Below are positions 47,196 through 57,943 of a DNA stretch of 64,000 bases, in pieces. The notes beneath the pieces are model-generated. The model was not told the DNA's origin. It searched no databases and saw nothing but the letters and a program-made list of their open reading frames with translations. The DNA comes from Bacteroidales bacterium (GTDB taxonomy: Bacteria; Bacteroidota; Bacteroidia; Bacteroidales; M50B96), in NCBI GenBank assembly GCA_018401015.1, contig JAGYLP010000002.1:124001-188000 (forward strand). The letters are read 5' to 3'. Each line of letters starts with the position of its first letter. The first letter of the stretch is position 1. The position numbers were made by a program, and so were the translations under genes.

Positions 47196-48304
47196 ATCTT
47201 TCGGACTTTTTAAACTCTTGTGTCAACGGCGGAATTGCTTTTGCCAGTGTAAAAGAACCCGGTAAAAAGGTTTATACCATTCCGTCGGAACTCAGTCAGG
47301 TTCATTCTGTGAACGATGAAACGCTGCGACAGGTTGAGCAAGGATTTCTGGTTGCTCCCTTTAAGCCCGGAGATCAAAAATGGTTGATTCCGATTGACCA
47401 TTTGCACGAAGGGAATTTCATTCCCGATACCCTCCTTCAAAGGCTGAAAAAGGATCGAAGCCTTGTGCCTTTTCAGAAGAATCCATTTGATTCGACGCAT
47501 TTTCCTGAGTATGCTGCTCAGTTTAAGCTTTTTCATCAATCTTTAACCAGCGGAGAACTAAGCAAAGTGGTATCGTCGCGACGAACGCTGCTAGAGCCTT
47601 TGCCGGAACCGGATGATTATCCGCTTTTGTTTGAATCGTTGATGCAAAACTATCCTTTTGCTTTTGTGTATTGGATTCATATACCGGGAGTTATGTCCTT
47701 TATGGGAGCCAGTCCGGAGGTGTTGTTAGAATGGGCCAATGGTGAAGGACATACCATGTCGCTAGCCGGGACAATGCCAGTGGATTCACCCATGCTGTGG
47801 GGTGAGAAGGAGCGTGAAGAGCAGGCTATTGTGAGCCGTTACATTCAAACCATTTTACAAGAAGAAAACTTGTCGGTAACGGTTTTTCCGACCGAGGATA
47901 AGATTGCAGGCCGAATTAAGCATTTATGCACTCGCTATCGTTTTCCATTGCCCTCGGAGCGATTTCTTGACTTAGCCTTACGATTGCATCCTACTCCTGC
48001 TATTGCCGGGATTCCCATGACGGAGGCAGTAAAGTTGATCGAGGAGGTAGAGCATCAATCTCGTCGATTCTACGCCGGATTTGCCGGGTTATTGCGCTTG
48101 CCTGTTCAGGGTAGTTTATTTGTAAGTTTGCGCTCGATGGAGATTTTTTCCGATGCTCTGGTCTTATATACCGGAGGAGGTCTCACGGTAGATTCTCAGT
48201 TAGAGAAGGAGTGGGAGGAGACCGAGCGAAAGGCTGAAACCTTATTGTCGATTATTGAAAAAATTAGGAAATTCGCACGAAAAGAAGCACATGACCAGCG
48301 ATAA
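47192..48304 (+). CDS. menF: Isochorismate synthase
   Basis: A 370-aa chorismate-binding enzyme converting chorismate to isochorismate, the entry step of menaquinone synthesis. Family blocks: LSKVVSSRRTLLEP, FMGASPEVLLEW, SLAGTMP, LHPTPAIAGIPMTEA, RRFYAGFAGLL and the C-terminal YTGGGLTVDSQLEKEWEETERK, supplying the magnesium and substrate sites. Length is slightly short but complete. The product feeds MenD, encoded next with an overlap. Confidence 0.93.
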   Translation: MNLSDFLNSCVNGGIAFASVKEPGKKVYTIPSELSQVHSVNDETLRQVEQGFLVAPFKPGDQKWLIPIDHLHEGNFIPDTLLQRLKKDRSLVPFQKNPFDSTHFPEYAAQFKLFHQSLTSGELSKVVSSRRTLLEPLPEPDDYPLLFESLMQNYPFAFVYWIHIPGVMSFMGASPEVLLEWANGEGHTMSLAGTMPVDSPMLWGEKEREEQAIVSRYIQTILQEENLSVTVFPTEDKIAGRIKHLCTRYRFPLPSERFLDLALRLHPTPAIAGIPMTEAVKLIEEVEHQSRRFYAGFAGLLRLPVQGSLFVSLRSMEIFSDALVLYTGGGLTVDSQLEKEWEETERKAETLLSIIEKIRKFARKEAHDQR

Positions 48305-49979
48305 GATTGGAATCAATCATTTAGTAGAAATTCTTCTTCAAAAAGGGATTGATTCGGTTGTGATTTCGCCCGGAAGCCGGAATGCACCCTTAGCCATTAG
48401 TTTTGCCCGGAATCCGTCTATTCATCTTTATCCAATTGTCGATGAGCGTTCGGCCGCTTTTTTTGCCATGGGCATGGCCCGTGAATTGGGCAAACCGGTA
48501 GCTTTAGTGTCTACTTCGGGGAGCGCTGTGCTGAATTATGCACCGGCATTGGCTGAGGCTTATTATCAGGAGATTCCACTCATTTGCCTCACCGCCGACC
48601 GACCGGCAGCCTGGATTGATCAGGGAGAGAGCCAAACCATTCGTCAGTTCGAAGTTTTTAGAAATTTTATTCTAGGGAGTTTTCAACTTCCCGAAGTAAT
48701 TCAGAATGAAGATCAACTCTGGTTGAATAATCGAATCATCAACGATGCAATCAATCTGGCCTTAGGGAAACCACATGGTCCGGTTCATATCAATATCCCC
48801 TTGTCCGAGCCCTTGTATGGGGTTCGCGAGTCGGGTACGATTCAGCCAAAATTGATGAATCATGTAAAAGCAGAGCCACTGCTGCCTAAGAGTGAGGTAC
48901 AAGAGCTGAGATCGTCCTGGAGTGGGTTTACCCGTAAATTATTGCTGATTGGGCGACAGGCTCCCGATGCTGCGTTAGAACAACAAATCAGCAACCTGGC
49001 TGCCGATCCATCGCTTGTCGTGTTGACCGAAAGCACTTCGAATATGCATTCGGAACGCTTTTTCCCTTGCATCGATAAGTTAATGGTTTCGATGCCACCG
49101 GACCGAATGGAAGCGTTTCATCCTCAGCTCCTGATAACCATTGGGAATCAGGTGATTTCTAAGATGGTGAAAGCCTGGCTTCGGAAGATTCCTGGTCTGC
49201 AACATTGGCATATTGATTCTTCCGGGAAACCATTGGATACGTATCAGCATCTCACACGGGTTTATCCAATTAATCCTAAGGATTTTCTTCAATATTTGAC
49301 TGAATCGCCCACCTCCTCCAGCACCTATCGACTTGCCTGGGAACCTTTACTTAGGTCGATTCAACAGCATCATCAAAACTATTTGCAGCAAATTGCTTAC
49401 AGCGATTTAAAAGTTTTTGAAGCCATTACTCAATCCTTGCCCTATCATTCGGTGTTGGACATGGCCAACTCAACTCCGGTTCGTTACATACAACTTTTTC
49501 CCTTTAATCGAACCATTCGGTATTACGGGAACAGGGGAACCAGTGGTATCGATGGGAGTGTTTCCACGGCTGCAGGAGCTGCTTTTGTTTCGGAGCAATT
49601 GCATGTATTGATTACCGGCGAATTGAGTTTTTTGTACGACAGTAATGGATTGTGGCACGCTCATCACAAACCAAACTTCAAAATTATTGTTATCAACAAC
49701 GGAGGAGGAAATATTTTTCGGTTCATTGAAGGTCCCGCTCAATTGCCAGAGTTAGAAGAATTCTTTGAGGTTCGTCATGATTATTCGGTAGAGCATTTGG
49801 CCAAAGCCTTTCGATTCCGTTATGTTGCTGTTCAGCCGGAGATCGACTTAAAGCTTGCCTTGGAGCAGTTCTTTGTGCCGAAAGACCGTCCGGAAATTTT
49901 AGAGATTTTTACTCCTCCGGAGGCCAGTGGCTCCATCCTCAAAGCTTATTTTAAGTATTTAAAAGATAATCGATTATGA
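48291..49979 (+). CDS. menD: SEPHCHC synthase (MenD)
   Basis: A 562-aa thiamine-diphosphate enzyme joining isochorismate and 2-oxoglutarate. Motifs: [16 protein letters not shown] at the N-terminus, [43 protein letters not shown], and the ThDP/Mg site [15 protein letters not shown]...[11 protein letters not shown] start at 48291 ([16 protein letters not shown]), where homologues begin; this gives a 14-base overlap with menF. The ORF-track start lies 12 codons upstream within menF. Confidence 0.95.
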
Positions 49980-50797
49980 CACAAAGAAATTGGACAACCA
50001 TTAAGGAATACGAGGATATTCTATTTGATTTTTTCGAAGGGATCGCAAAGATTACGATTAATCGCCCTCGATACCGCAATGCATTTACCCCCACCACCAC
50101 CAGCGAAATTAGCGATGCTCTGCGCATTTGTCGAGAGGACCAAAACATCAACGTTGTGGTTTTGACTGGAGCGGGCGACAAAGCATTTTGCAGTGGAGGC
50201 GATCAAAACGTTAAGGGAGCGGGAGGATACATTGGGAAAGATGGTGTTCCCCGACTGAATGTGTTGGATGTGCAGCGTCAGATACGTTCCATGCCAAAGC
50301 CGGTAATTGCCATGGTTAATGGTTATGCCATAGGCGGAGGTCATGTGCTCCATGTTATTTGCGATTTAACCATTGCATCGGAGAATGCTATTTTTGGGCA
50401 AACAGGACCCAAAGTTGGCAGTTTCGATGCTGGATTTGGTTCTTCCTATTTAGCGCGGATTGTGGGTCAGAAAAAGGCCCGTGAGATTTGGTTTTTGTGC
50501 GATCAGTATTCGGCACAAGAAGCGCTGGATATGGGCTTGGTAAACAAGGTTGTACCCCTTGAGCAGCTAGAAGATACGGTTGTTGAATGGTCGAAAAAGA
50601 TGATGATGCGCAGCCCAATGGCATTGCGAATGATCAAGATGGGCTTGAATGCCGAGCTGGATGGACAGGCTGGCATACAGGAATTGGCCGGAAATGCAAC
50701 CTTGTTGTATTACTTAACCGAAGAAGCTCAAGAGGGGAAACACGCTTTCCTTGAGAAACGCGACCCCGATTTTCATCAATATCCCAAATTTCCATAA
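49976..50797 (+). CDS. menB: 1,4-dihydroxy-2-naphthoyl-CoA synthase
   Basis: A 273-aa crotonase-fold enzyme that closes the second ring to give DHNA-CoA. It begins [30 protein letters not shown], has the oxyanion-hole loops [11 protein letters not shown] and [17 protein letters not shown], and the MenB-specific [21 protein letters not shown]. The C-terminal end is [14 protein letters not shown], also typical of MenB. It overlaps menD by four bases. Confidence 0.97.
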
Positions 50798-50799
50798 GC

Positions 50800-51711
50800 A
50801 TGGCAAATGCAACGGCGTGGATTCAAGCCTTTCGCTTACGAACCTTACCCTTAGCCTTGTCGAGCATAGCACTTGGTGGATTTGCAGCCTGGCATCGCGG
50901 AAGTTTTCAGCTTAAGGTAAGTTTGCTGGCAGCCCTCACCACTTTGCTCCTGCAAATTTTGTCGAATCTGGCCAACGATTATGGCGATTCGAAAAAAGGA
51001 ACGGATAATGATAATAGGGTTGGTCCGAGCAGGGCGGTTCAGAGTGGAGCCATTAGCCCTGCCTCGATGAAGCGTGCTGTAATCTTTTTCTCTGGTCTTT
51101 CGTTGCTTTCGGGAATAATGCTTCTGTTGGCTGCATTCGGAACCAGCGGGAAGCTTTATTTACTGCTAAGTTTCTTTTTGCTGGGAGTAGGCGCAATTTT
51201 AGCGGCCATTCGCTACACGATTGGAGAAAATCCTTATGGTTATGCCGGCTTTGGCGACTTATTCGTGTTTCTTTTCTTTGGTCTGGTTGCAGTTACCGGA
51301 ACCTTTTTTCTGAATGGGTTAAAACTGGAATACGATGTATTTTTCCTGGCTGCTGCCATGGGCTTGCTCAGTACCGGTGTGCTGAATCTGAATAACATGC
51401 GCGATATTGAAAACGACAGGGCGAGTGGAAAGAATAGTTTGGTGGTAAAAATGGGTTCATCGTGCGCTCTCGTTTATCATGTCGGACTCATTTCCCTTGC
51501 ATTACTTTCCTTTCTGCTCTACTCCTGGTCGCATTTTCAATCATGGTCTCAACTCAGTTATGTGGCTGTTTATCCTCTGTTTTTTCTACACATTCGTCGG
51601 GTGGTAATGGAAAAAGAAGCTCGAAAACTCGATCCACGTCTCAAAGAACTGGCTCTTTTATCGCTCTTGTTGGTGGTAGCTTTTGGATTGAGCCTAAATC
51701 TTTCTCTCTAG
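50800..51711 (+). CDS. menA: 1,4-dihydroxy-2-naphthoate polyprenyltransferase
   Basis: A 303-aa UbiA-family membrane prenyltransferase that adds the isoprenoid tail to DHNA, giving demethylmenaquinone. The first Asp-rich motif is in NLANDYGDSKKGTDNDNRVGPSRAV and the second in NNMRDIENDRASGKNSLVV. Eight or nine hydrophobic segments are visible. The gene lies three bases after menB and one base before menC, so transcription is certainly shared. Confidence 0.95.
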   Translation: MANATAWIQAFRLRTLPLALSSIALGGFAAWHRGSFQLKVSLLAALTTLLLQILSNLANDYGDSKKGTDNDNRVGPSRAVQSGAISPASMKRAVIFFSGLSLLSGIMLLLAAFGTSGKLYLLLSFFLLGVGAILAAIRYTIGENPYGYAGFGDLFVFLFFGLVAVTGTFFLNGLKLEYDVFFLAAAMGLLSTGVLNLNNMRDIENDRASGKNSLVVKMGSSCALVYHVGLISLALLSFLLYSWSHFQSWSQLSYVAVYPLFFLHIRRVVMEKEARKLDPRLKELALLSLLLVVAFGLSLNLSL

Positions 51712-51712
51712 T

Positions 51713-52768
51713 ATGTACGTTGCATTACACCCCTATCGGTTACAATTTTTAATTCCTGCCAAAACATCGCGCTCCGAACTCTTTCATCGCGATGTATGGT
51801 TCATTCGTTTGCAAGATGAGGAAGGGAAGATAGGTGTGGGCGAATGTCCTCCGCTTCCGGGATTAAGCAAGGAACTTGTGCCGGATTATCCGGAGGTTCT
51901 TGCTCGCCTGGTTGCCGATATGAATGCAAATCCGGGCTGGCAGCCGGAAGATTTTATCGCTTATCCGTCCTTCCGATTTGGCTTGGAAACGGCTCTAGCC
52001 TCGCTCAAAGCGAATAATGGACCGGTCCTGTTTCCAAGCGATTTTACCGAGGGACGTTCCTCGTATCGGATAAACGGACTTATTTGGATGGGTACGTATG
52101 CCAGGATGAAAAGTCAAATTGCGGCGAAATTGGAGGAAGGCTTTCGGTGTTTAAAGTTGAAAATCGGGTCGATCAATTGGGATGATGAATTGAATTTATT
52201 ACGTCAGATCCGAAAGGATTTTTCGCCTTCTCAACTTGAACTGCGGGTAGATGCGAACGGTGCTTTCGATCCTTATGAGGCCGAGCAAAAGCTGCGCGAT
52301 TTAGAAGCCTTCCATATTCATTCCATCGAACAACCCATCTATCCGGGCCAGCGATATATGATGGAGGAATTATGCCGGAAGGAGATCATTCCCATTGCTC
52401 TCGACGAAGAATTGCTGCAGGTACGCACCCTGGAAGAGAAACGAAGCTTGTTGGATGAGGTTCATCCGCATTATCTGATTCTTAAGCCCGGCATAAATGG
52501 TGGATTTGCCTCGTCGGAAGAATGGATTCAACTGGGCCGTGAGCGAACTATTCCATTTTGGATTACCAGTTCGCTGGAAAGTAATGTTGGCCTGAATGCG
52601 CTAGCACAATTCACTGCTTTGCATGCCGACGATATGCCTCAAGGATTAGGCACCGGGCAGCTCTATGGGAACAATTTTCCTGGACCGCTGATCCTGCAGG
52701 GCGAACGATTGTATTTCGATAAAAACCGGACCTGGGATATCCGTTCCATTTTTGAACATGAGCACTAG
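51713..52768 (+). CDS. menC: o-succinylbenzoate synthase
   Basis: A 351-aa enolase-superfamily enzyme dehydrating SHCHC to o-succinylbenzoate. Visible residues are the catalytic lysine in LKLKIGSINWDDEL, the metal ligands in LRVDANGAF, IEQPIYPGQ and ALDEEL, and the second lysine in LILKPGINGGF. The N-terminal capping domain (RSELFHRDVWFIRL; GVGECPPLPGLS) is complete. It overlaps menE by several bases. Confidence 0.94.
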   Translation: MYVALHPYRLQFLIPAKTSRSELFHRDVWFIRLQDEEGKIGVGECPPLPGLSKELVPDYPEVLARLVADMNANPGWQPEDFIAYPSFRFGLETALASLKANNGPVLFPSDFTEGRSSYRINGLIWMGTYARMKSQIAAKLEEGFRCLKLKIGSINWDDELNLLRQIRKDFSPSQLELRVDANGAFDPYEAEQKLRDLEAFHIHSIEQPIYPGQRYMMEELCRKEIIPIALDEELLQVRTLEEKRSLLDEVHPHYLILKPGINGGFASSEEWIQLGRERTIPFWITSSLESNVGLNALAQFTALHADDMPQGLGTGQLYGNNFPGPLILQGERLYFDKNRTWDIRSIFEHEH

Positions 52769-53831
52769 TCGGATTTGGTGGGAAGGGAAAGCTTTTTCCC
52801 CGGAGGAATGGATTTCCTCGATGGATGGGCGCTTTTCGACTTTTCCTGATTGGTTGAAGGAATGGAGTATTTTCCTTCGGGAATGGCTTAGCCCCTCGCA
52901 CCATATTGAGGTTCAGACCTCCGGTTCGACCGGGACGGCTCAAACGATGTTGCTGCTTAAATCGAACATGCGATTGAGTGCTCAATCAACCAATCGGTAT
53001 TTTCAACTAGGACCCGAAAGCCAGTTCTTATCCTGTTTGCCGGTTCGGTTCATAGCCGGTAAAATGATGTTGGTAAGAGCGCTCGAAGCGGGTGCTGGCT
53101 TGGTTTTGAAGGAGCCGAGAGTCAATCCACTCGATGAAATTACCGAAGAATTTGATTTTGCCGCTCTTACTCCTCATCAGCTTTGGAACGCCCATCATGC
53201 TGGAAGTCCCATCCATCGGATTCAAACTATTTTATTGGGTGGCGAGGCTGTTTCAGCGGCACTCCTTCAGGTGATTCAATCGTATCCGGTACGTTTCGTA
53301 TCCAGTTATGGAATGACAGAAACCATTACCCACGTCGCTTTACAAGAGCTTCATCCGAATTACGAAGCTTATTTTCGTTTGCTACCGGGAGTTACCGCAG
53401 GGCTCAATTCGGAGGGTTGTTTATTTCTGGAGGCCAGTTGGATAGAAGGGCGTATTCAAACTACGGATAGGGTTGAGTTTGTGGGTTCGAATCGTTTCCG
53501 TTTTTTAGGTCGGAGCGATTTCATTATCAACAGTGGAGGCATCAAGGTTAATCCGGAGGAATGGGAGCGAAGCGTAAAAGAGCAGGTTTCATTCGACTGG
53601 CTTATTTCTTCTCGTCCGCATGCCGAAAAGGGCGAAGAGCTTGTTTTAGTCGTTGGTGATGCCAATTACCAGTTAGCCCAAGCGTGGCTCGATATGGTGA
53701 ACCGCTATTCGACCTTTGGTGTTAGTATAAAAAAAGTGGAATGCTGGGATGTTATTCCCAGAACCGAATCAGGAAAAATTAATCGAACCGAAGTAAAAAA
53801 TCGATTGCAAAACGATACTTTTAGTCCTTAA
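52758..53831 (+). CDS. menE: o-succinylbenzoate-CoA ligase
   Basis: A short 357-aa acyl-CoA synthetase activating o-succinylbenzoate. The AMP-forming signature is TSGSTGTAQTMLLLKSNM, followed by SSYGMTETITHVALQE, the GRSDFIINSGGIKVNPEEWE hinge, and the C-terminal lysine region PRTESGKINRTEVKNRL. It is shorter than the roughly 450-aa Bacillus-type MenE, which is usual for Bacteroidota. I place the start at the third codon (MSTSRIWW), though M1 at 52752 is possible. It is the last biosynthetic gene of the run. Confidence 0.92.
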   Translation: MSTSRIWWEGKAFSPEEWISSMDGRFSTFPDWLKEWSIFLREWLSPSHHIEVQTSGSTGTAQTMLLLKSNMRLSAQSTNRYFQLGPESQFLSCLPVRFIAGKMMLVRALEAGAGLVLKEPRVNPLDEITEEFDFAALTPHQLWNAHHAGSPIHRIQTILLGGEAVSAALLQVIQSYPVRFVSSYGMTETITHVALQELHPNYEAYFRLLPGVTAGLNSEGCLFLEASWIEGRIQTTDRVEFVGSNRFRFLGRSDFIINSGGIKVNPEEWERSVKEQVSFDWLISSRPHAEKGEELVLVVGDANYQLAQAWLDMVNRYSTFGVSIKKVECWDVIPRTESGKINRTEVKNRLQNDTFSP

Positions 53832-53849: not shown

Positions 53850-56834
53850 ATGAGCAACACCAACCTGAGTAACCTGCTGGAGCATAAATATTATTTCCCT
53901 GAAACACCCTTTCACAAATTAATGACCCACCGGATAAATCGGGTTTTATTGCTTTCTAGCTCGTACGATTATTTCATTTTGGAGGAAGATGGTCGGATCG
54001 ATGAGCAGATTTTTCTGGAGTATGTGGCCCTGAACCTTCGGTATCCGCCTCATTTTATTCATGCTAATTCAGCGCAAAAAGCCCTCGAGATACTCGAGTC
54101 GGAACCCATCGATTTGGTTATTACCATGATCAGCATCGAGGATATGGATGTATTCGAGTTGAGCAATCGGATTAAGGAATATCATCCGCATACCCCCATC
54201 GTCTTATTGAATGCTTTTTCGCGCGAAGTTTCTATTCGATTGAGCGAAGTGAATTTAAGTAAGATCGATTTTGTTTTTTCCTGGTTGGGAAATGCCGATC
54301 TGTTGCTCGCCATCATTAAGCTGATCGAGGACCGAATGAATGTGGAGCAAGATGTAAACGAGGTGGGAGTCCAGACGATTTTGCTCGTAGAAGATTCCGT
54401 GCGTTTTTACTCGAGTTATCTGCCACACATTTACAAAATCATTTTTAAGCAGTCGAAAAAATTCATGGTCGAAGGACTGAATGAGCATCAGCAAATGCTT
54501 CGGATGCGCGGCAGACCAAAAATTTTGCTCGCCACTAATTACGAAGAGGCCCTCGACTACTATCAAAAATACAAGCATAATTTACTGGGAGTAGTAAGTG
54601 ATATTTCGTATCCTCGAAAAGGAATTAAAGACAAGCGGGCTGGTTTCAAGCTGGCTCGTTTGCTTAAGAAACACGACCCTTATCTGCCGATTTTATTGCA
54701 GTCGTCCGATGCAAAAAATATCGAAGTGGCCCGCTCCATGGAAGTCGGGTTCATTCACAAACATTCGAAGACGCTCAATAAAGAGTTGCGGGATTTTGTG
54801 ACGGAGTATTTTGCTTTTGGGAATTTTAAAATCAAAGACCCTGACACCGGGCATGTTGTATTGGAAGTAGCTAATTTGAAGGAGCTTCAGGATGTTATTC
54901 ATCAAATCCCCGATCAATCGCTTCAGTATCACATCGAGCGGAATCATTTTTCAAAGTGGCTTACTGCCAGGGCGTTGTTTCCGGTCGCAGAGATTTTTAA
55001 GTGCTTGCGTCCAGAGGATTTTCAGGATTTGAATCAAATTCGGAGCTTCCTGTACACCACTATTTCTAACTATCGGCACAACAAAGGCCGAGGAATCATT
55101 TCTAAGTTTTACCGCGATCGCTACGATACTTCCCAGATTTTTAGCCGGATAGGAGAAGGCTCCATTGGAGGAAAAGCAAGGGGATTAGCCTTTGTTGATT
55201 CCTTGATTAAGCGCAATGGCTTGCTCGATAAATATCCGAATGTTCAGATTACGATACCGCGAACTGTGGTTTTAAGCACCGAGGTATTCGATGAGTTCAT
55301 GGAGATGAATCAGTTGTATTCGGTGGCTTTATCGAATTTGCCCGACGACGATATCTTGAAACATTTTATTAGGGCACAGTTTCCTTCTCGCATTTTACGC
55401 GATTTGGAAGCTTTTATCCGGGTTTCTAAAAATCCGATTGCAATTCGCAGCAGTAGCTTGCTCGAGGATAGTCATTATCAGCCTTTTGCCGGAGTTTACA
55501 ATACCTACATGATCCCGATGAACGACGAAGACGAAGGGCAAATGCTGGTAAATTTGGCCAATGCAATTAAAGCTGTTTATGCGTCGGCCTATTACAAAAA
55601 CTCCAAAGCCTACATGATTGCTACCTCGAATGTAATCGACGAGGAGAAAATGGCGATAGTCCTTCAGGAAGTAAGCGGACGCGCTTATGAAAACCGCTTT
55701 TATCCGACCATGTCCGGGGTAGCTCGATCCTTCAATTTTTATCCAATTGGACCCGAAAAGCCCGAGGATGGGATCGTGAATCTTGCCTTTGGTTTGGGGA
55801 AATATGTGGTGGAAGGAGAGCCGAATATGCGTTTTTCGCCCAAGTATCCTAAAAAGATATTGCAGCTTTCGAATACCGATATGACTCTGAAGGAGAGTCA
55901 GAAAACATTTTACGCTCTCGATTTATCGAAAAAGGATCCCGGGTTTACTCCCGACGACTCAGCCAATTTGGTGAAATTGAGAATCAAAGCCGCTGAAAAC
56001 GATTCATCGCTTAAATATGTTGGTTCTGTTTACGATTTTGAGAATCATATTATCCGCGATGGGGTTAATTACGATGGGAAAAAGATCATCACTTTTGCTA
56101 ATGTGCTGAAGTACGATACCTTCCCCTTAGCCGATATTATTTCCGATTTGTTGGATATCGGGCATAAGGAGATGAATAATCCGGTTGAAATTGAATTTGC
56201 TGCGGTGCTCGATGTAGACCCTGAAACGCCTCGTCAATTTCATGTTTTGCAGATTCGCCCCATCGTGGATAATCGGGAGTACATCGATGAGGATTTGGAT
56301 TCGGTTAAGGAGGAAAAAACCCTGATTAAGTCGTATGCTGCCTTAGGAAATGGAATGATAAGCGAGGTGCAAGATGTGGTGTATGTAAAGCCTTCGAGTT
56401 GGGATCCGTCGAAAACTGTTGAAATAGGGAACACGATTGCCCGGATTAATGAGGAATTTGTGCAGCAGGAGTCTTATTATGTATTGGTTGGACCTGGTCG
56501 ATGGGGAAGTTCCGACCCATGGTTGGGTGTTCCCATTAAGTGGTCGCAAATTTGCCAAGCCCGGGTTATTGTTGAATCGGGTCTGGAAAACTATCGAGTC
56601 GATCCGAGTCAGGGAACCCATTTCTTTCAAAACTTAACCTCGTTTCGGGTTGGCTACTTTACGATTAATCCTTACTCGAATGATGGTTTTTTGAACATCG
56701 ATTTTCTATCGACCCAAAAAGCTATTTACGAAGATAAATACGTTAGGCATGTTCGCTTGAAAAGCGAGATGAGCATTAAAATCGATGGTCAACGTCGTAT
56801 CGGAGTTATCCTATTGCCCAACGGAACGGAATAG
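53850..56834 (+). CDS. REC-REC-PPDK_N protein (response-regulator domains fused to a PEP/pyruvate-binding ATP-grasp-like domain)
   Basis: A 994-aa cytosolic protein. Residues about 28-155 resemble a receiver domain in which the phospho-acceptor Asp is replaced (M93 in DLVITMISIEDMD). Residues about 175-325 form a second receiver with the normal residues: E181/D182 (LLVEDS), D251 (VVSDISYP) and K304 (FIHKHS). A helical linker leads to a PPDK N-terminal domain from about 430 (GEGSIGGKARGLAF; AIRSSSLLEDS near 531; VLQEVSGRAYE; NLAFGLGKYVVEGE). I see no swivelling phosphohistidine domain and no C-terminal PEP-synthase barrel; instead there is a unique C-terminal region with LVGPGRWGSSDPWLGVP near 879. 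It sits 18 bases after menE. Databases may call it PEP synthase, but that reaction cannot be assumed. Confidence 0.85.
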   Translation: MSNTNLSNLLEHKYYFPETPFHKLMTHRINRVLLLSSSYDYFILEEDGRIDEQIFLEYVALNLRYPPHFIHANSAQKALEILESEPIDLVITMISIEDMDVFELSNRIKEYHPHTPIVLLNAFSREVSIRLSEVNLSKIDFVFSWLGNADLLLAIIKLIEDRMNVEQDVNEVGVQTILLVEDSVRFYSSYLPHIYKIIFKQSKKFMVEGLNEHQQMLRMRGRPKILLATNYEEALDYYQKYKHNLLGVVSDISYPRKGIKDKRAGFKLARLLKKHDPYLPILLQSSDAKNIEVARSMEVGFIHKHSKTLNKELRDFVTEYFAFGNFKIKDPDTGHVVLEVANLKELQDVIHQIPDQSLQYHIERNHFSKWLTARALFPVAEIFKCLRPEDFQDLNQIRSFLYTTISNYRHNKGRGIISKFYRDRYDTSQIFSRIGEGSIGGKARGLAFVDSLIKRNGLLDKYPNVQITIPRTVVLSTEVFDEFMEMNQLYSVALSNLPDDDILKHFIRAQFPSRILRDLEAFIRVSKNPIAIRSSSLLEDSHYQPFAGVYNTYMIPMNDEDEGQMLVNLANAIKAVYASAYYKNSKAYMIATSNVIDEEKMAIVLQEVSGRAYENRFYPTMSGVARSFNFYPIGPEKPEDGIVNLAFGLGKYVVEGEPNMRFSPKYPKKILQLSNTDMTLKESQKTFYALDLSKKDPGFTPDDSANLVKLRIKAAENDSSLKYVGSVYDFENHIIRDGVNYDGKKIITFANVLKYDTFPLADIISDLLDIGHKEMNNPVEIEFAAVLDVDPETPRQFHVLQIRPIVDNREYIDEDLDSVKEEKTLIKSYAALGNGMISEVQDVVYVKPSSWDPSKTVEIGNTIARINEEFVQQESYYVLVGPGRWGSSDPWLGVPIKWSQICQARVIVESGLENYRVDPSQGTHFFQNLTSFRVGYFTINPYSNDGFLNIDFLSTQKAIYEDKYVRHVRLKSEMSIKIDGQRRIGVILLPNGTE

Positions 56835-57788
56835 TTAAAATTCCGGATAGTAAACACCGCTGCCGATAAGGTAATCGTAACCTTGAATTGGGGTTACGTA
56901 GGCATTTTTAAATTGCTCGGTGTTTGTTTGATAATCCATCCAATAATAGGAGTAAAATCCCCCACCATTTTGAGCGGTCTCAATTAATCCTTGCATGAGG
57001 TAGTTCCCGCGAGAGTCTTGCATATCCCACTGATAATTCCCTTCTCGTTCGGGTTCAGGAGGTTGTACTACATTGTATCCGCGGTAATCGAGTACAAAAA
57101 AATAACCACTCAGGTTATCGAAAAAGCGAATGTGCCTTAGGAAGGCTCTCATCAAATCTACCCGTTCGAGCGAGTCGGAAGCAGTGGTTGGCAGCACTGC
57201 AGCCAAGCCTCTTGCCATAAAGTTAACCGCTTCCTGCACTACCTTTTCGTTTTTCTTAAAATCGCAGAGGTAAGGTTCATTCATTCGACCGTAAAAACCT
57301 GATCCTGCGTACCAGTCGGTTCCCGGAATCGCTTTTACGTAGGTAGTTTTTTCGTCGATGTTCCCGTTCAAATCGCTGTAATCGTAGCTTAAAAAGCCAC
57401 CGTTCTGATAAGTAACCAAATCAATCATTTTAAGTACGATTAGATTCCCATGAGCGTCGGTTTGTTCGAGCGAAGATTGACCTTCCAGTTCGGGCTGAGC
57501 TGGGTGGGCAATGTTGTATCCGCCCAGGCTTTCCACAAACAAGTAAGATTGAGGTTCATCCAGAAAGAAAGCCGCATGAGCAAAGGCCTTACAAAACTTC
57601 ACTTTTTCGATGGAATCGACCAGCCAGGTGTCGCCGAGGCTGTAAAGCCCTGTATTGAAGGTGCTCACATTGGTTTGGACCGATTCTTTCAGTACTTGGT
57701 AATACGGATAAGCTGCTTGTTCCGGTTCTTTTTCGCACGATGAAAAGAAAAATACAGCGATAACCAGAAGGGTAAAATTAGCTTTCAT
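56835..57788 (-). CDS. Double-Cache domain lipoprotein without effector
   Basis: A 317-aa lipoprotein (MKANFTLLVIAVFFFSSCEKEPEQ) whose mature part consists of two related Cache-type (PAS-like sensor) domains. The first contains SYLFVESLGGYNIAHPAQPELEGQ and VKAIPGTDWYAGSGFY. The second contains GYFFVLDYRGYNVVQPPEPEREG and VTPIQGYDYLIGSGVYY. The C-terminus follows directly; there is no transmembrane helix and no kinase or methyl-accepting domain. It probably binds a small ligand at the periplasmic face. I start at 57788; the longer ORF start would spoil the signal peptide. The gene converges on the REC-PPDK_N gene with abutting stops. Confidence 0.85.
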   Translation of the reverse strand: MKANFTLLVIAVFFFSSCEKEPEQAAYPYYQVLKESVQTNVSTFNTGLYSLGDTWLVDSIEKVKFCKAFAHAAFFLDEPQSYLFVESLGGYNIAHPAQPELEGQSSLEQTDAHGNLIVLKMIDLVTYQNGGFLSYDYSDLNGNIDEKTTYVKAIPGTDWYAGSGFYGRMNEPYLCDFKKNEKVVQEAVNFMARGLAAVLPTTASDSLERVDLMRAFLRHIRFFDNLSGYFFVLDYRGYNVVQPPEPEREGNYQWDMQDSRGNYLMQGLIETAQNGGGFYSYYWMDYQTNTEQFKNAYVTPIQGYDYLIGSGVYYPEF

Positions 57789-57943
57789 GGGACAGAATGT
57801 GTGGATTAAGTTTCCCGAAGGTAGCATATTTTAAGTGGCTTGTGCTTAACTTGTTAATTAGAATTGAAAACTTGTTCTTATCGACCATGTGGAGCTTTCT
57901 GTAAAGTCGTAATTTAGACTGATAGAAAGCAGGTTCGCAGTGC

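Follow-up and report, generated by a model that had tools for sequence, protein, structure and literature searches.

A 994-residue protein of a Bacteroidales bacterium, in which two receiver domains precede a PPDK-type ATP-grasp domain and a conserved C-terminal domain, is probably a control protein of the phosphorylation type that is dedicated to ammonia assimilation and is not a part of menaquinone biosynthesis, because a glutamate dehydrogenase (GDH) gene adjoins members of its family in genome after genome. The gene (here the target) lies in a stretch of 64,000 nucleotides, referred to as the window. The presence of receivers together with a PPDK-type ATP domain suggests a signal-gated, ATP-dependent control protein. 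The link to GDH is strong; the chemistry proposed below is what we infer for such a protein.

Domain architecture

The reading frame of the target is intact and opens with an ATG codon 18 bp past the menE stop codon on the same strand (Table 1). Pfam finds Response_reg in two stretches (E 3.2e-12), PPDK_N at residues 438-815 (E 2.4e-36; 317 of the 328 positions of the model) and, marginally, DUF5752 at residues 284-362. In receiver 1, residues 71-126 align to positions 27-82 of the Response_reg model, with M93 in what we take, from the receiver family generally, to be the phospho-acceptor column. Among 72 close members this column holds Met in 63, otherwise Ala, Trp or Leu, and never Asp. Receiver 2 has the acidic pair, acceptor Asp, Ser/Thr and Lys of a response regulator: E181, D251, S285 and K304 are kept in 72/72 close members and D182 in 65/72. 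The linker motif YHxxRxHFSxWL is strongly conserved, and its H361 occurs in 71/72.

Table 1. Features of the target gene and the genes directly upstream; positions are those of the window.
Feature	Position	Strand	Basis
menD-menB-menA-menC-menE, directly upstream of target	48255..53831	+	named by reading ORFs
Target gene, 994 aa + stop, REC-REC-linker-PPDK_N-C-terminal domain	53850..56834	+	ORF, Pfam, AlphaFold2 model (mean pLDDT 87.3)
Receiver domain 1, residues about 21-165, aspartate-less; M93 codon 54126-54128	53850..54344	+	Pfam Response_reg, column counts
Receiver domain 2, residues about 172-322, intact: E181, D182, D251 (54600-54602), S285, K304 (54759-54761)	54363..54815	+	column counts of relatives
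Linker, residues about 323-428, weak DUF5752 similarity, YHxxRxHFSxWL motif	54816..55133	+	Pfam, column counts
PPDK_N ATP-grasp domain, residues about 431-805; K442 (55173-55175), R533 (55446-55448)	55140..56264	+	Pfam, Foldseek, column counts
C-terminal domain, residues 806-994; H924 codon 56619-56621	56265..56831	+	no Pfam family; model pLDDT 92.2

The ATP-grasp residues K442, R533, T552, E780, E782, Q801 and R803 are present in all 72 close members; R803 is replaced by Lys in the upstream paralogues described below. The best structural matches of this domain in Foldseek are HpeI (9goj, E 2.5e-10) and rifampin phosphotransferase (RPH; 5hv2, E 2.5e-9). K22 and R117 matter in the latter enzyme (PMC4844700), and the PPDK_N catalytic set, which is intact in the target, matches them when mapped by motif. 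Pfam finds neither PF00391 nor a PEP barrel in the target, and a C-terminal PEP/pyruvate barrel is absent, 189 residues in all following the ATP-grasp domain. The sole PF00391 protein of the genome is a separate PPDK (L118).

These results agree in most respects with the original prediction, which had been made from the sequence of the window. It placed Met at the phospho-acceptor position of receiver 1, as the Pfam alignment and the column counts confirm; an acidic pair, D251 and K304 in receiver 2, as the column counts also do; and an ATP-grasp-like domain from about residue 430, where PPDK_N is found. It further pointed to the string GPGRWGSSDPW (residues 881-891) in a C-terminal region that it did not recognize, and no sequence library identifies that domain. 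Its claim that the phosphohistidine part and the PEP barrel are both missing holds for PF00391, the GGxTSH motif and the barrel; at the level of a hint, a very diverged phosphohistidine-like domain with an invariant H924 may exist. Pfam finds neither an intact phosphohistidine domain nor a PEP barrel in the C-terminal third, and literature searches turned up no description of the family.

The C-terminal domain and H924

AlphaFold2 predicts a confident fold for residues 806-994 (pLDDT 92.2), for which no Pfam family is matched. The conserved set comprises G835, N867, GRWG (883-886), D889, G893, E909, S920, G922, H924, F925 and F926. Over 127 diverse sequences N867, G883, R884, W885, G886, D889, G893, E909, S920, H924, F925 and F926 are invariant, and H924 is found wherever the sequence covers the segment. 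In the model a helix (924-930) begins at H924 and is followed by a strand (935-940). The phosphohistidine domain of PPDK, with GGMTSH, a helix and a strand, appears on reading by eye to have the same local order and about equal spacing between the histidine and the strand.

Fold comparison gives a weak match to PPDK: the most probable PDB match of the C-terminal domain in Foldseek is PPDK 5jvj_A (probability 0.57, E 0.10, TM 0.35), for which the matched part of PPDK is not displayed. Among the better viral matches is gp139 of phage G (probability 0.38), which is annotated as PPDK and has both PPDK_N and PF00391; two unnamed viral proteins rank higher. Sequence homology to PF00391 was rejected as undetected by per-member hmmscan (PF00391 is absent from all 71 C-terminal domains), by hhalign against the phosphohistidine domain of 17 PPDKs (0.2%) and with a larger alignment pair, and a PDB profile search with the domain returns chance-level matches only. 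The canonical GGxTSH motif is missing from the target. The dikinase HpeHI and RPH have the swivel motif T/SxxGGxxxH (PMC12167813); it too is missing, the segment reading SxG[ST]HFF in nearly all members. The weak fold matches suggest that the domain may be a very diverged phosphohistidine carrier, a reading that the sequence profiles do not support. H924 is a candidate phosphocarrier, and not an established one, because the PPDK segment matched by Foldseek is not displayed and the sequence profiles are empty.

The family and its distribution

Relatives were gathered from public genomes at 40-65% identity. At least 573 confirmed relatives were found on public genome contigs, in a non-random sample made up of the loci most similar to the target, and members occur in 29 of the 31 genomes covered by the search for relatives, almost all of which belong to the same order; the existence of the family is therefore far beyond chance. 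It is present in nearly every sampled Bacteroidales genome, including the gut genera Bacteroides and Parabacteroides, and, in a sample of 198 genomes that spans the phylum, in only 34. Bacteroidia of other orders seem in many cases to be without the target gene. The family has no curated name and no description of it was found in the literature. A phage or defense origin was considered and rejected, as viral contigs contain no relative of the family and PADLOC gives no match.

The unit of PPDK_N and C-terminal domain is common to four architectures. The target, with its two receivers, represents architecture A. A longer paralogue, encoded upstream, carries PAS or another N-terminal extension on the same unit. 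Architecture B, of about 580 aa, has no receivers, and architecture C, of about 1060 aa, ends in a nucleotidyltransferase domain.

Genomic neighborhoods

The original prediction tied the protein to a menaquinone operon. The neighborhoods of 80 relatives do not bear this out: the men cluster is near only 1 of them and a MenA-like gene near 2 more. In two relatives from the window's own taxonomic family the target is directly preceded by a homologue of window gene 45339; in the window itself the men cluster stands between that gene and the target. The men genes are lineage-specific neighbors outside the conserved unit, and on the neighborhoods of the relatives a menaquinone partnership was rejected. 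The regulatory role that was also predicted fits. The conserved neighbor is GDH. On the other side of the target, a lipoprotein gene (56835-57827, minus strand) with two Cache-like repeats, seen by eye, is convergent with it and abuts its stop codon with zero gap.

In Bacteroidales, GDH is the next gene at 26 of 80 loci and lies within three genes at 32; it is not found in the retrieved stretch of the other 48, some of which are on short contigs. A second set of 40 loci comes for the most part from other classes of Bacteroidota, with three from genomes that share the taxonomic family or class of the window, and GDH is the next gene at 32 of the 40; at L184, one of the eight negatives, the contig ends beside the family genes. 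Of the 55 members in this set that have an upstream neighbor, 35 are directly preceded by a GDH gene on their own strand and a further 11 by another family member. Short distances also prevail in the genus of B. bouchesdurhonensis, where 37 of 56 target copies are at most 5 kb from GDH and 20 at most 1 kb. In G199, a genome of the window's own taxonomic family, the target (locus L197) is followed by GDH 51-234 bp on. The genome of the window has a single detected GDH gene (C12:205918-207234), on the same contig, 25 kb from the target and 18 kb past the window end.

The identity of these enzymes as GDH was confirmed with NCBIfam, and at least two GDH subfamilies are represented. Architectures A, B and C are each linked with GDH. 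Since every architecture is repeatedly found with GDH genes of different subfamilies, the product likely works with GDH. Gene adjacency alone is no demonstration of direct modification. Among side observations, type C proteins in L178-L187 and L192 accompany a 428-aa archaeal-type GDH, with genes that by eye belong to histidine biosynthesis nearby in several. A cluster in the genus Bacteroides (L204:959-13003) contains an aminopeptidase, GDH, the target, catalase, NADP-GDH and malic enzyme.

Two further kinds of neighbor recur. At about 11 of 80 loci, genes for a KorA/KorB-type 2-oxoacid:ferredoxin oxidoreductase lie directly upstream of the target or of the paralogue-target pair. In L043, L045, L061 and others these genes end 5-21 bp before a PAS/REC-REC paralogue, which is followed by the target, and some such loci have a glutamate racemase gene farther upstream. 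In L158, L160 and L165 the neighbors of family members are HisKA_3 kinases with LuxR regulators beside them, and L170 has a gene of the same cluster in this place, its kinase being assigned by clustering only; among the surveyed loci these four alone have an adjacent histidine kinase. In L158, L165 and L170 the kinase and the LuxR-type regulator are located between two GDH-target pairs.

Proposed function

The architecture, the conserved residues of the ATP-grasp domain and of receiver 2, the invariant H924 and the recurrent linkage to several GDH types are observed, whereas phosphorylation of D251, the role of H924 as phosphocarrier and that of GDH as direct target are steps that we infer. 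A histidine kinase would phosphorylate D251 of receiver 2, and receiver 1, which is not phosphorylatable, would have a structural or docking function. The state of the receivers would gate the PPDK-type ATP-grasp domain, and this domain would charge the C-terminal domain at the expense of ATP, with H924 as the most likely site. The charged C-terminal domain would then pass the phosphoryl group to GDH, or change its shape and bind GDH, and GDH activity would be set according to nitrogen or energy status. In some lineages the 2-oxoacid:ferredoxin oxidoreductase may perhaps be controlled as well. The chances that GDH is controlled by this ATP-using, receiver-gated protein are about evenly balanced, and action by phosphotransfer through H924 is a tentative proposal, somewhat short of even. 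The full scheme would amount to a new class of post-translational control, in which a receiver-gated, PPDK-derived histidine phosphotransferase with an SxG[ST]HFF phosphocarrier domain modifies GDH throughout Bacteroidota and has a sister form with a nucleotidyltransferase; taken as a whole it is possible and still doubtful.

Several systems offer a comparison. VadK (Rv1127c) of M. tuberculosis is described as a His kinase of PPDK descent which phosphorylates itself and which binds enzymes of the methylcitrate cycle and tunes their activity; it combines an ATP-binding domain with a phosphotransfer histidine domain (H422), and the description consulted mentions no receivers (PMC13400623). Like the target it is without the PEP half, which provides a precedent for a PPDK turning into an autophosphorylating regulator of metabolic enzymes; as far as that account goes, it differs in the enzymes on which it acts and in the two receivers of the target. 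The aspartate-less receiver domains (PMC4395418) resemble receiver 1 in missing the acceptor Asp; in the target, receiver 1 is combined with a second receiver that is intact and with PPDK_N as the output domain. If the target does control GDH, it would explain how Bacteroidales tune ammonia assimilation and would be a further PPDK-derived regulator like VadK, wired to two-component signaling.

The same gene linkage would be expected of a non-catalytic sensor-effector whose ATP-grasp domain does no more than sense ATP/ADP or a similar ligand; such a protein would bind GDH and thereby activate or inhibit it. GarA and OdhI of Actinobacteria act in this way; they are unrelated proteins that regulate by binding, under the kinase PknG, and if the GDH reading is right the target would serve the same node, the enzymes of 2-oxoglutarate and glutamate. 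Absence of the canonical GGxTSH motif also favors such a protein, but K442, R533, E780, E782, Q801 and the C-terminal set with H924 are invariant or nearly so, a pattern typical of catalytic sites, and the reading seems unlikely. It is still less probable that the protein is a small-molecule dikinase which phosphorylates a metabolite related to glutamate or 2-oxoglutarate and is linked to GDH through a shared pathway. HpeHI and RPH, which share its ATP-grasp fold and include its nearest solved relatives, do phosphorylate small molecules, whereas the target has no counterpart of the third, separate substrate-binding domain of RPH or HpeH, and the receiver, PAS and nucleotidyltransferase domains of the family point to signaling.

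A role in menaquinone synthesis, as regulator or as transferase, was predicted first; it accounts for the close spacing behind menE in the window but not for the absence of conserved men neighbors or the different arrangement in two relatives from the same family, and is highly improbable. That the protein is an ordinary or decayed PEP synthase or PPDK is scarcely credible. It shares with these enzymes the PPDK_N ATP-grasp domain with its catalytic residues and possibly, judging from the fold, a C-terminal domain that resembles their swivelling phosphohistidine domain. Unlike them, it has two receivers in front and a link to GDH, it is without PF00391 and the PEP barrel, and it represents a separate conserved family of about 1000 aa. 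The genome also has a separate PPDK. The preferred reading is a receiver-gated protein derived from PPDK, either a phosphotransferase or an ATP sensor, by which GDH activity is controlled.

A possible link to a trans-acting gene downstream of gdhA

By its title, the study of Baggio and Morrison (1996, J. Bacteriol. 178:7212) attributes an influence on GDH activity in B. thetaiotaomicron to trans-acting gene(s) located downstream of gdhA. The layout of L204 places a catalase gene between NADP-GDH and the target. BT_1971 was considered as the B. thetaiotaomicron orthologue and rejected, since papers describe it as catalase; from the L204 layout, BT_1972 is the likelier candidate for the orthologue. 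Because of the intervening catalase gene and the identity of BT_1971, the proposal that the trans-acting gene is a member of the target family is left as plausible but unproven. The fragment studied in 1996 was reportedly about 3 kb long. The existence of the target family makes this puzzle testable, and in five of the genomes sampled from this genus (G274, G286, G288, G290 and G295) the 3-kb stretch right after a GDH gene is a gene of the target family, convergent with GDH and 0-100 bp away.
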